DNA of 64,000 nt from Halobaculum limi (GTDB lineage: Archaea; Halobacteriota; Halobacteria; Halobacteriales; Haloferacaceae), in contig NZ_CP120468.1 of assembly GCF_029490015.1 (NCBI RefSeq), positions 434,001-498,000 on the forward strand, written 5' to 3'. How positions within the stretch are numbered: position 1 is the first letter of the stretch; each line of letters starts with the position of its first letter. Positions 44,280 through 47,810 of the stretch are shown one piece after another. The notes under the pieces are model-generated. The model worked only from the letters and a program-made list of their open reading frames with translations, did not search any database and was not told where the DNA came from. A program made the translations under genes and the position numbers.

Positions 44280-44305
44280 CCCACGACCCAATCGTGGGAG
44301 TTTTT
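44280..44305 (+). terminator. radA terminator hairpin overlapping the next promoter
   Basis: CCCACGA-CCCAA-TCGTGGG (44280-44298) is a perfect 7-bp stem, followed by AGTTTTT (to 44305). It has the shape of an intrinsic terminator. The T-tract is also 28 bases before the next ATG (44333), the right distance for a TATA box, so it may serve both. Confidence 0.6.
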
Positions 44306-44332
44306 AACACATCTCGGCTCGTCTTGACAGCT

Positions 44333-44716
44333 ATGAGTACCGAGACAGCCTCCGGCGGGTTCGCGTTGCACACCGAGTCGATGACCGGCCTCCACTGGCT
44401 GGGCGTCGCCACCGCTGTCGTGAGCGGAGTGATCCATCTGTGGCTCGCCGTCTCGTTCATCGGTGAGAGCCTCGGCCTCGGAATTGGCTTCCTCGTCGCC
44501 GGCGTTGGCTTCCTCGCCGGTTCGGCGGCCGTCCTCTTCGACTATCGCCGTCGCGCGTTCTACGCGCTCGGCATCCCGTTCACGCTCGGGCAGATCGTCA
44601 TCTGGCTGGCAGTGACGCCCGCCGACGAGTACCTCTCGCCCATCGCCGTCACCGACAAACTGGCGCAGGTAATCTTGGTCGTCGTCCTCGTCGTGCTGTT
44701 CCGCCGCGCCTCCTGA
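44333..44716 (+). CDS. Small membrane protein (DUF7475-like), function unknown
   Basis: A 127-residue protein with four hydrophobic helices (about residues 20-40, 44-62, 70-88 and 100-122). The first 18 residues (TASGGFALHTESMTGLHWLG) look family-typical; I match it only loosely to the unstudied DUF7475 group. Nine bases later comes a second membrane protein, so they are likely co-transcribed from the T-tract promoter. Confidence 0.7.
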   Translation: MSTETASGGFALHTESMTGLHWLGVATAVVSGVIHLWLAVSFIGESLGLGIGFLVAGVGFLAGSAAVLFDYRRRAFYALGIPFTLGQIVIWLAVTPADEYLSPIAVTDKLAQVILVVVLVVLFRRAS

Positions 44717-44725
44717 TCGGCCGTG

Positions 44726-45280
44726 ATGGCGTTCACCCACGCGCTGGTCGGCGCGGCACTCGCCGCACCGGTCGTCGCGTTCGCACCCGAACTCGCCGTG
44801 CCAGCGGTATTGGCTGGGATGGTCGGCGGCCTCGTTCCCGACGTCGACCTGTTCGTCGGTCGCCACCGGCGCACACTCCACTTCCCGATTCTCGGGTGGG
44901 CGCTCGCGCTTCCAGCGGTCGCGCTTGCGCTGTTCGCGCCCGGCGTCGCCACCGTCGCGGCCGCGGTCGGGACCGTCTCGTTCGCCGTCCACGCCGGGAT
45001 GGACGCACTCGGCGCTGGCGACGAAGTTCGCCCGTGGGAACGTACCTCTAGAGAGGCCGTGTACGACCACCTCCGCGGGAAGTGGGTCGAGCCACGCTTT
45101 TGGATCCGCTACGACGGCGCGCCCGAGGACGCCGTCGCCACCGCGATACTCGCGGCCCCGGTCGTCGTCTTCTACCCCGACCCGTTCCCGGCTATCGCCA
45201 CGGCGTGTGTCGTCCTCGGGGTCGGGTACGCGGTCGTCCGTCGTCGGCTTCCGCCGGTCGTCGAAGAGTTCGTCGGCTGA
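44726..45280 (+). CDS. YdjM/DUF457-type membrane-bound metal-dependent hydrolase
   Basis: A 184-residue protein starting MAFTHALVGAALAAPVV. The family's metal ligands appear: His5 in THAL, the Asp pair in GLVPDVDLFVGRHRRTLHF (DxD and later His), and HAGMDALG. About four membrane helices. DUF457 proteins are LexA-linked or phospholipase-like in bacteria, unproved here. I start at the second ATG (44726) as the ribosome could use either of two adjacent ATGs. Confidence 0.85.
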   Translation: MAFTHALVGAALAAPVVAFAPELAVPAVLAGMVGGLVPDVDLFVGRHRRTLHFPILGWALALPAVALALFAPGVATVAAAVGTVSFAVHAGMDALGAGDEVRPWERTSREAVYDHLRGKWVEPRFWIRYDGAPEDAVATAILAAPVVVFYPDPFPAIATACVVLGVGYAVVRRRLPPVVEEFVG

Positions 45281-45406: not shown

Positions 45407-45802
45407 ATGACCTATCGTACGACCGTCACGCGCCAGTTCGTCGCACAGCATTACCTCACCGTCCCCAACCCCGGTCCCGAGGGCGACCTTCACTCACACG
45501 TCTTTCGCGTCGAGGTCACGTTCGCCGGGCCGACGCTCAACGAGTTCGACTACCTCGTCGACATCGACGACGTGCGGGCCGCCCTCGACGACGCGGAGGC
45601 ACGGTACTGCGACGCGACGCTGAACGACCTCCCGGAGTTCGAGGGGTACAACCCCAGCGTCGAGCGATTCGCCCGCGTCCTCCACGACCGTCTCGCGCCC
45701 GCCGCGGCCGACGACCCTGCCGAGTCGCTCCGCGTCACCGTCTGGGAGGACGACGAGGCCGCCGCGGGCTACGAGGCACCCGTCGATGGAGGAACAGAGT
45801 GA
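45407..45802 (+). CDS. PTPS-family pterin enzyme with Glu in place of catalytic Cys
   Basis: A 131-residue protein of the 6-pyruvoyltetrahydropterin synthase/QueD family. Zinc histidines are H15 (FVAQHYL) and H29, H31 (LHSH). The usual catalytic Cys, four residues before the HxH pair, is E25 here (GPEGDLHSH). In bacterial and Plasmodium PTPS-III enzymes a Glu at this place goes with cleavage of dihydroneopterin triphosphate to a hydroxymethyl-pterin. Late residues EGYNPSVERFARVLHDRLAP fit the family. It precedes a glycosyltransferase and a methyltransferase. The 126 bases upstream show nothing clear. Confidence 0.87.
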   Translation: MTYRTTVTRQFVAQHYLTVPNPGPEGDLHSHVFRVEVTFAGPTLNEFDYLVDIDDVRAALDDAEARYCDATLNDLPEFEGYNPSVERFARVLHDRLAPAAADDPAESLRVTVWEDDEAAAGYEAPVDGGTE

Positions 45803-45850
45803 GACTGCCGGAGACGATGCAACCGTGTCGATGAAGTCGGGTGACGACTC

Positions 45851-46936
45851 GTGAACGGCGAGAATCCCCTAACCGTCGCGCTCGTCGTCCCGGGCGACCC
45901 CGAAACGACGTCCGGCGGCTTTCGCTACGACCGCCGACTGGTCGAACAGTTGCGGGCGACCGGCGTCGACGTGCGGGTGTTCTCGGTCCCGTGGCGACGA
46001 TACCCGCTCGGCGTCGTCGACACGCTCGGTCTCGCGACCGGCGTTCCCAACCGTCTCAGCGATGCAGACGTCGTGCTCGTCGACGAACTCGCACACCCAG
46101 GGACCGTCGGCCTCGCCGCCCGCCTCGAATGGTCGGAGACGCCCGTCGTCGCGCTGGTCCACCACCTCCAGTGTGTCGAGGGCAGGTCGCTCGCTCCCGT
46201 CGCACGACGCCTCGAACGGCTGTTTCTCCAGCGATGCTCTGCTGCAGTCTGCGTAAGTCGCGCGACCGAACGCGACGTTCGGAGCCTCGCCGGGAAGCAG
46301 ATCCGGACCCACCGCGCCCCGCCGCCGGCCGACCAGTTCGACCCCAGCGTGACGCCCGGTGACGTCGCCGTTCGTGCCCGAACCGTGCCGTTCCGCGTCG
46401 TCTCGCTGGGGTCGCTCGTCCCGCGAAAGGGGCACGCGACACTGCTGCGGGCGCTCACGGACCTCGACGCCGACTGGTCGCTCGCCGTCGTCGGCCCCGA
46501 ACCGGAACCCAACCACGCGGCGGCGATGCGGTCGCTCACGGCCGACCTCGGCGTGCGTTCGCAGGTCGCGTTCCACGGCGAACTGTCGAGCGACGACCTC
46601 ACCGACGTGTTGCGCGACTCCCACGCCCTCGCGATTCCCTCAGCGTACGAGGGGTTCGGAATGGCGTATCTGGAGGGGATGGGCTTCGGTCTCCCGGCAG
46701 TAGCGTCGAGCGCGGGCGGCGCGGAGTCCGTCGTCACGGACGGCGAGAACGGCTTCCTCGTCGACCCGGGCGACGTCGCGGGTGTCCGCGCGGCGCTGTC
46801 GTCGCTGGCGACCGACCGCGAGCGCCTGGCCGCAATGGGCGAGGCGGCGCTGGCGCGATTCGCGGCCCATCCCGAGTGGGCCGACACGGTCGCCGGCGTC
46901 CGTGCGTTCCTGACGGAGGTAGCGTATGGAGGGTGA
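45851..46936 (+). CDS. GT4-type glycosyltransferase (GT-B fold)
   Basis: A 361-residue retaining glycosyltransferase from a GTG start. N-terminal Rossmann half begins TVALVVPGDPETTSGGFRYD; C-terminal half begins FRVVSLGSLVPRKGHATLL, with the nucleotide-sugar glutamate motif PSAYEGFGMAYLEGMGFGLP (EX7E, about residues 275-283). No membrane helix. The last 11 bases overlap the methyltransferase start, so products are made together. Acceptor unknown; the PTPS-type neighbour hints at a pterin. Confidence 0.9.
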   Translation: MNGENPLTVALVVPGDPETTSGGFRYDRRLVEQLRATGVDVRVFSVPWRRYPLGVVDTLGLATGVPNRLSDADVVLVDELAHPGTVGLAARLEWSETPVVALVHHLQCVEGRSLAPVARRLERLFLQRCSAAVCVSRATERDVRSLAGKQIRTHRAPPPADQFDPSVTPGDVAVRARTVPFRVVSLGSLVPRKGHATLLRALTDLDADWSLAVVGPEPEPNHAAAMRSLTADLGVRSQVAFHGELSSDDLTDVLRDSHALAIPSAYEGFGMAYLEGMGFGLPAVASSAGGAESVVTDGENGFLVDPGDVAGVRAALSSLATDRERLAAMGEAALARFAAHPEWADTVAGVRAFLTEVAYGG

Positions 46937-47810
46937 CGACGTGGCGTACCTAGAGGCGGCCGCGACCGTCGACGACCGGGCACACTCGCAGGAAGGGACG
47001 GCGGCGTTTCGGGACGCCCTCCGTCGGGACGACGACGCCGACGGCGTCCGGGTGCTGGAGGCGGGCGCGGGCACCTGCGGGATGCTCCGCAGACTGCTCG
47101 CCGACGACGCCCTGCCGACCGGCGAGTGGGTCGCAACTGACACCGACGAGCGCGTGTTGGACGCCGGCCGCGACCTGTTGCGAGCGGCGGCGGCGGAAGC
47201 GGGCTATCGGGTCGAAACGGAAGGTTCGGCGGACGTGTTTCGACGCGGTGAGAGCCGCCTGCGCGTGCGGTTCGTCGCCGACGACGCCCGCGCGGTCGCC
47301 GCCGGATACGACGCCGACGGCGTCGTGGGTCGCTCGTTCGCGGACCTACTGGCGCCCGAGGACGTCCACTCGCTGCTCCGGGCGGCCGCGCCGGACGGCT
47401 GGTATCACCTCCCGCTCACCTTCGACGGCGAGACACGGTTCTCACCGTCACACCCTGCCGACGACGCCGTGCTGGACGCCTTCCACGCGACGATGCGCAA
47501 TCGCGGCCGGGCGGCGACGCTGGTGGCAGAGCGGTTCGCCGACGCCGGGACGCCGCCGACGGTCGACGCCCGGTCGGACTGGGTCGTCGAGAGAGTCGGG
47601 GATGCCGACGGACCCGACGACGGCTACCCCGTCGACGAGGAGACGTTCCTGCGGACGATTCTCGACACCGTCGTTGCGTCCGTGCGTGACTCCGGACGGG
47701 TACCGGAGGCGACGCTCCGGGAGTGGGCCAACACGCGAGAACAGCAGTTGGCGCAGGGAAGGCTCGGCTACGTCGCGGTGAATCGGGACCTGTTCGGGCG
47801 CGTGCCCTGA
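46926..47810 (+). CDS. Class I SAM-dependent methyltransferase
   Basis: A 294-residue protein with a Rossmann SAM-binding core: motif I VRVLEAGAGTCGMLRRLLA (about residues 41-58), motif II acidic VATDTDERVL, and a DGVVGRSFADLLAPED strand (about 131-146). It overlaps the glycosyltransferase by 11 bases. Together with the PTPS-like enzyme the trio suggests a modified, glycosylated and methylated small molecule. The acceptor cannot be read from sequence. Confidence 0.88.
   Translation: MEGDDVAYLEAAATVDDRAHSQEGTAAFRDALRRDDDADGVRVLEAGAGTCGMLRRLLADDALPTGEWVATDTDERVLDAGRDLLRAAAAEAGYRVETEGSADVFRRGESRLRVRFVADDARAVAAGYDADGVVGRSFADLLAPEDVHSLLRAAAPDGWYHLPLTFDGETRFSPSHPADDAVLDAFHATMRNRGRAATLVAERFADAGTPPTVDARSDWVVERVGDADGPDDGYPVDEETFLRTILDTVVASVRDSGRVPEATLREWANTREQQLAQGRLGYVAVNRDLFGRVP

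Follow-up and report, generated by a model that had tools for sequence, protein, structure and literature searches.

A PTPS-family gene in the window (the whole stretch of 64,000 nucleotides of Halobaculum limi DNA analysed here) is followed closely by the genes for a glycosyltransferase and a methyltransferase. Proteins of this PTPS family are automatically annotated as 6-carboxytetrahydropterin synthase (QueD-type). The arrangement raises the question of whether that name is right, and of whether the three genes act together on one small molecule. The genes concerned, with their two upstream neighbours, are as follows.

44294..44716, plus strand: DUF7475 small membrane protein, a probable accessory member of the gene set
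44723..45280, plus strand: YdjM-like membrane metal-dependent hydrolase, membership uncertain
45407..45802, plus strand: PTPS-like protein of 131 aa (Pfam PF01242, 88 bits; COG0720 PTPS fold), with zinc ligands His15/29/31, Glu25 and Asp69 in place of the Cys and the His of QueD, and the pterin-anchor Glu114
45851..46936, plus strand: GT4 retaining glycosyltransferase with a GTG start, PF00534 and PF13692, and the EX7E motif E267/E275
46926..47810, plus strand: class I SAM-dependent methyltransferase (MT), co-inherited with the PTPS gene

The three frames described in the first-pass annotation stand where it had placed them, and those of GT4 and MT share 11 bases (46926-46936) as it said. The GT-B family 1/4 domains together with the EX7E motif place the glycosyltransferase in GT4. 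The MT had zero matches in Pfam or NCBIfam in the domain search; the fold modelled for it by AlphaFold2 (pLDDT 89.9) is that of a class I SAM methyltransferase. Motif I reads EAGAGTCG, and the Foldseek matches are partial only, with TM about 0.5.

Active site of the PTPS-like protein

Glu25, His29 and His31 were read correctly by the first-pass annotation, and an alignment with E. coli QueD puts Glu25 where that enzyme has its catalytic Cys. Of 58 haloarchaeal orthologues aligned, 57 share this Glu, which is therefore not a chance substitution. Asp69 replaces the catalytic His of QueD, again in 57 of the 58, and His15, His29, Ser30 and His31 are invariant in all. Glu114 is invariant across the haloarchaeal proteins, PTPS-IV and QueD; it is the counterpart of the Glu with which PTPS enzymes grip a 2-amino-4-oxo-pyrimidine or pterin ring.

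Glu25 had also been interpreted as the substitution typical of PTPS-III, and this identity was rejected on the sequence. In the literature PTPS-I is marked by CxxxHGH, PTPS-II by CxxxxxHGH and PTPS-III by ExxHGH (PMC5041015), the Glu of the last standing three residues ahead of the first His (PMC5041015; PMC5445326). The window family has the motif ExxxHSH, with its Glu four residues ahead and Gly26 in the PTPS-III Glu position, and therefore departs from the PTPS-III signature; in addition to the wrong motif register, the catalytic His is changed to Asp69. The folate-type PTPS-III enzymes resemble it in having a Glu near the HxH pair, but the window Glu lies one residue further out, and no folate genes were seen in the conserved neighbourhood.

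An identity as QueD was rejected as well. The T-fold, the three zinc His and the ring-anchoring Glu are common to QueD (PTPS-I) and the window protein, whereas CxxxHGH and the catalytic Asp-His pair are absent from the window family, Cys being replaced by Glu25 and His by Asp69. A second PTPS homologue in the same genome is of the Cys type and, on inspection of the sequence, is flanked by QueE-like and QueC-like frames (L002); the window type has no QueC or QueE neighbours and sits instead with dehydrogenase (ADH), GT4 and MT genes. QueD of this genome is thus that separate Cys-type protein and not the one in the window. The database annotation of the family as a QueD-type enzyme of the queuosine pathway is wrong.

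Co-inheritance in haloarchaea

The PTPS gene was found in 87 of 99 family-level genomes and in 72 of 116 class-level genomes, the latter being the sample of haloarchaea on which the co-occurrence tables are based. Within 8 kb of 59 haloarchaeal PTPS loci, a zinc-type dehydrogenase gene was encountered at 51, the MT at 48 and the GT4 at 43, followed by DUF7475 (39), a CDP-alcohol phosphotransferase (30) and the GTP cyclohydrolase III ArfA (21). Genome-wide, the dehydrogenase is present in 69 and the MT in 70 of the 72 genomes with PTPS, and neither occurs in the other 44. The CDP-alcohol phosphotransferase, found in 68 of the 116 genomes, belongs to 67 of the 72 and to only one of the 44. All these co-occurrences have Fisher p-values below 1e-24, calculated over related genomes that are not independent. 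Presence and absence are both found inside at least eight genera (g1, g11, g32, g34, g35, g49, g50 and g51), where the genes switch together. The lone E25D protein (L047) comes from a genome (G150) that lacks both dehydrogenase and MT.

PTPS, GT4 and MT thus belong to a co-inherited set of at least six genes, and the locus counts and co-inheritance establish a conserved multi-gene unit. The first-pass annotation had expected the three genes to be neighbours in relatives and part of a functional unit, which is borne out, and its guess at two further neighbours was right, as the unit includes both a GTP cyclohydrolase and an alcohol dehydrogenase. The three-gene haloarchaeal set of that annotation is real, but the unit has further members and extends beyond haloarchaea. 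Given this distribution, it is extremely unlikely that an ordinary PTPS-III folate enzyme or QueD merely lies next to unrelated glycosyltransferase and MT genes. The fold and the automatic annotation are what such a reading would have in its favor; the motif register, the separate Cys-type QueD and the co-inheritance with ADH, MT and CDP-alcohol phosphotransferase contradict it.

The members need not be clustered. In the genome that contains the window the set is dispersed: only PTPS-GT4-MT lie in the window, whereas the ArfA gene lies at 1.386 Mb, that of the CDP-alcohol phosphotransferase at 2.578 Mb and that of the dehydrogenase at 3.002 Mb. Where the MT is relocated, as for instance in G010, G036, G055, G080 and G028, it adjoins the CDP-alcohol phosphotransferase. 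The GT4 gene adjoins the PTPS gene in most relatives. Of the 72 PTPS-bearing genomes, 44 have a DUF7475 family gene no more than 8 kb from PTPS, and the YdjM-like hydrolase gene adjoins PTPS in the Halobaculum group and is scattered in others. At about 20 loci, a gene for a fused Gfo/Idh/MocA-aldo/keto reductase (L041:11948-13945 and homologues) stands 3-5 kb from PTPS, often with a sulfatase-like gene; this protein may supply or modify the sugar.

The CDP-alcohol phosphotransferase is co-inherited nearly as tightly as the MT, which would suit a unit that mainly serves envelope glycolipids or glycoconjugates and is made up of CDP-alcohol phosphotransferase, GT4, MT, sulfatase-like and oxidoreductase genes; the PTPS-fold protein would then have been taken over to act on something other than a pterin. 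Sulfatase-like genes near the loci in both domains, the archaeal Gfo/Idh-aldo/keto reductase and bacterial flippase-like genes point in the same direction. Nevertheless, the linkage to GTP cyclohydrolase and RibD genes is repeated and the ring-anchoring Glu114 is conserved, and we hold such a system to be quite unlikely.

Bacterial counterparts and PTPS-IV

The order dehydrogenase-PTPS-GT4-MT recurs on plasmids of Methylosinus, Agrobacterium, Rhizobium, Thiodictyon and Streptomyces; in Palleronia and on a Rhodobacteraceae plasmid, the GT4 is missing between PTPS and MT. Profiles (HMMs) built from haloarchaeal sequences only match the bacterial cluster genes at E-values down to 1e-18 for PTPS, 1e-22 for the MT, 1e-56 for the GT4 and 1e-71 for the ADH, and within those loci the MT and PTPS profiles have no other matches. 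The homology of the module, including the GT4 of the window, is thereby established across the two domains. RibA, RibD_C, creatininase and CDP-alcohol phosphotransferase genes are added to the bacterial clusters in varying combination. RibA of the Streptomyces cluster, which is adjoined by a creatininase gene, has Met at the position of Tyr105 of E. coli RibA, the substitution by which the reaction of SCO6655 reportedly ends at the formylaminopyrimidine. In Agrobacterium and Palleronia, RibA retains the Tyr and the listed neighbours include no creatininase.

Three matches were set aside. The PTPS match in Parvularcula (L021) has a folate-like context without the module and was judged unrelated. 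A Streptomyces anthocyanicus PTPS (L122) and a Rhodococcus ADH (L080) were left out, as neither is surrounded by the module; the former (L122:7923-8348, on a plasmid) lies among genes for MEKHLA-domain and cupin proteins and possibly represents another subgroup.

All eight PTPS members of the bacterial clusters carry FGPAQ, the published signature of PTPS-IV, and belong to that group; the haloarchaeal proteins have PGPEG instead. The PTPS-IV proteins align Ala25, Ala31 and Tyr69 with the haloarchaeal Glu, His and Asp, which makes the archaeal type a distinct active-site variant with all three zinc His kept. With neither of the two carboxylates nor the third zinc ligand present in PTPS-IV, the archaeal and bacterial proteins may differ in chemistry. 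The nearest solved structure to the window protein is that of SCO6650 (PDB 3d7j), with a profile E-value of 4.7e-17 (1.4e-8 for QueD) and Foldseek rank 1 at 5.1e-10. An unrooted PTPS tree places the archaeal, PTPS-IV and QueD proteins in separate groups; because a tree of three groups only cannot root itself, the archaeal-bacterial sisterhood rests on the profile scores and the shared module. By these comparisons of sequence and fold, the haloarchaeal protein appears to be the counterpart of PTPS-IV.

The neighbourhoods of the haloarchaeal and the PTPS-IV genes have much in common: dehydrogenase, PTPS, GT4, MT, CDP-alcohol phosphotransferase and a GTP-opening cyclohydrolase form the common module, with ArfA replacing RibA in haloarchaea. 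Genes of PF00925 and PF01872 have been reported as neighbours of PTPS-IV (PMC5445326), and the section of that paper on IPR007115 calls PF00925 GTP cyclohydrolase I/FolE2. By Pfam, however, PF00925 is GTP cyclohydrolase II (RibA), and this changes the pathway inference. Both families are present in the bacterial clusters, whereas archaeal loci have ArfA (PF05165) instead, and RibD and creatininase are not consistently found there. The literature searched contained no activity for PTPS-IV and no description of HVO_1282, SCO6650/SCO6655, phosphohalopterin or the whole cluster.

Several proteobacterial clusters contain a cytochrome b561-type gene (L077:12996-13529, L121:12015-12554 and L078:12500-13057), which suggests a redox partner in the membrane; at haloarchaeal loci the small DUF7475 membrane protein takes its place.

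A proposed pathway from ring-opened GTP

ArfA is required for riboflavin and also feeds F0. Its presence in 113 of the 116 haloarchaeal genomes is expected because of riboflavin, and for the same reason part of its linkage to PTPS (at most 4 kb apart in 28) may be regulatory. Two ArfA genes were found in 13 genomes; 11 of these bear PTPS, and in 11 of 11 one copy stands beside it, which argues for a dedicated supply of formylaminopyrimidine. Two loci of a related kind were noted. One genome (G173:C1:1631061-1633282) lacks PTPS, the dehydrogenase and the MT; here a partial second ArfA adjoins DUF7475 and CDP-alcohol phosphotransferase genes and looks like a decayed remnant of the set. On a Natrarchaeobaculum plasmid (L082:8243-10633), ArfA and the dehydrogenase are paired, with a hypothetical gene and an IS5 transposase where PTPS, GT4 and MT would be expected; this is probably a disrupted copy.

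The link of the set to ArfA or RibA is established, and because the linked cyclohydrolases are these two and not GTP cyclohydrolase I, dihydroneopterin triphosphate is disfavoured as the substrate that the first-pass annotation had proposed. A conventional pterin glycoside would start from dihydroneopterin phosphate, the PTPS-fold enzyme giving a 6-substituted pterin that the GT4 and MT decorate in the manner of cyanopterin or solfapterin. Glycosylated and glycosylated-methylated pterins do occur in Sulfolobus (solfapterin, glycosylated) and cyanobacteria (cyanopterin, glycosylated and methylated), and the PTPS fold, the conserved zinc site and Glu114 agree with such a product. The pathway of cyanopterin and biopterin glucoside also shares the logic of a PTPS-type enzyme plus a glycosyltransferase, and the sugar of cyanopterin is methylated. 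Its input, however, comes from GTP cyclohydrolase I, unlike that of the window set, and it is not known to include a module of ArfA/RibA, RibD or CDP-alcohol phosphotransferase. With the catalytic Cys and His replaced, neither GTP cyclohydrolase I nor MptA linked, and RibD and creatininase added in the bacterial members, we consider this route unlikely.

A role in making or modifying coenzyme F420 is suggested by the feeding of F0 by ArfA, by an F420-dependent oxidoreductase gene close to the Streptomyces cluster and by an unpublished result according to which PTPS-IV is involved in F420 synthesis (PMC5041015). Yet 115 of the 116 haloarchaeal genomes, 43 of the 44 without PTPS among them, give a strong match of the CofH type (E about 1e-76 or better). 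Since CofH occurs without the set, the set is not required for core F420; it may optionally modify the cofactor, and the F420 reading as a whole is very unlikely. With the early riboflavin/F420 pathway (ArfA, ArfB/BrbF, RibD) the clusters share ArfA or RibA and homologues of creatininase and RibD_C, but no lumazine synthase, riboflavin synthase or CofG/H was seen in them.

We think it rather probable that the genes encode a conserved small-molecule pathway of archaea and bacteria, fed by GTP ring opening of the riboflavin type, with a glycosylated, methylated and probably phosphodiester-linked pterin-like product. We infer its substrate, order of steps, product and product class as follows. 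ArfA in archaea, or RibA in bacteria, would open GTP to a formylamino- or diaminopyrimidine ribosyl phosphate, on which a creatininase-type deformylase, where needed, and in many bacteria a RibD-type reductase may act. The PTPS-fold enzyme, with Glu114 kept, would then rearrange or close the ring system; in haloarchaea, zinc and two carboxylates (Glu25 and Asp69) would replace Cys/Asp/His. A BchC-like dehydrogenase may shift the oxidation state of a side-chain alcohol, after which the GT4 would attach a sugar and the MT a methyl group, and the CDP-alcohol phosphotransferase would make a phosphodiester, possibly to a lipid.

The set, dispensable in about 40% of haloarchaea, thus probably builds a sugar-decorated, methylated small molecule from GTP, for which a glycosylated, methylated pterin-like compound is plausible. 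Phosphorylated pterins ('phosphohalopterin') were reportedly found in haloarchaea by White's group, and a compound of this type would be a natural candidate. A more specific form of the proposal, and an unlikely one, is a membrane-linked cofactor or metabolite common to haloarchaea, actinobacteria and proteobacteria: a glycosylated, methylated pteridine (or ribityl-pyrimidine) joined by a phosphodiester to lipid, in whose synthesis a T-fold zinc/Glu/Asp enzyme would work on riboflavin-pathway pyrimidines instead of dihydroneopterin triphosphate.

A pathway whose key enzyme is annotated as QueD-type is carried by about 60% of the sampled haloarchaeal genomes and by diverse bacteria. The strict co-inheritance of PTPS, dehydrogenase, MT and CDP-alcohol phosphotransferase delimits it for genetics and metabolomics in haloarchaea. 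Resolving the pathway would settle the meaning of PTPS-IV, and would show one T-fold active site rebuilt in three ways: with Cys/His/zinc, with Glu/Asp/zinc, and with Ala/Tyr and no third zinc ligand.
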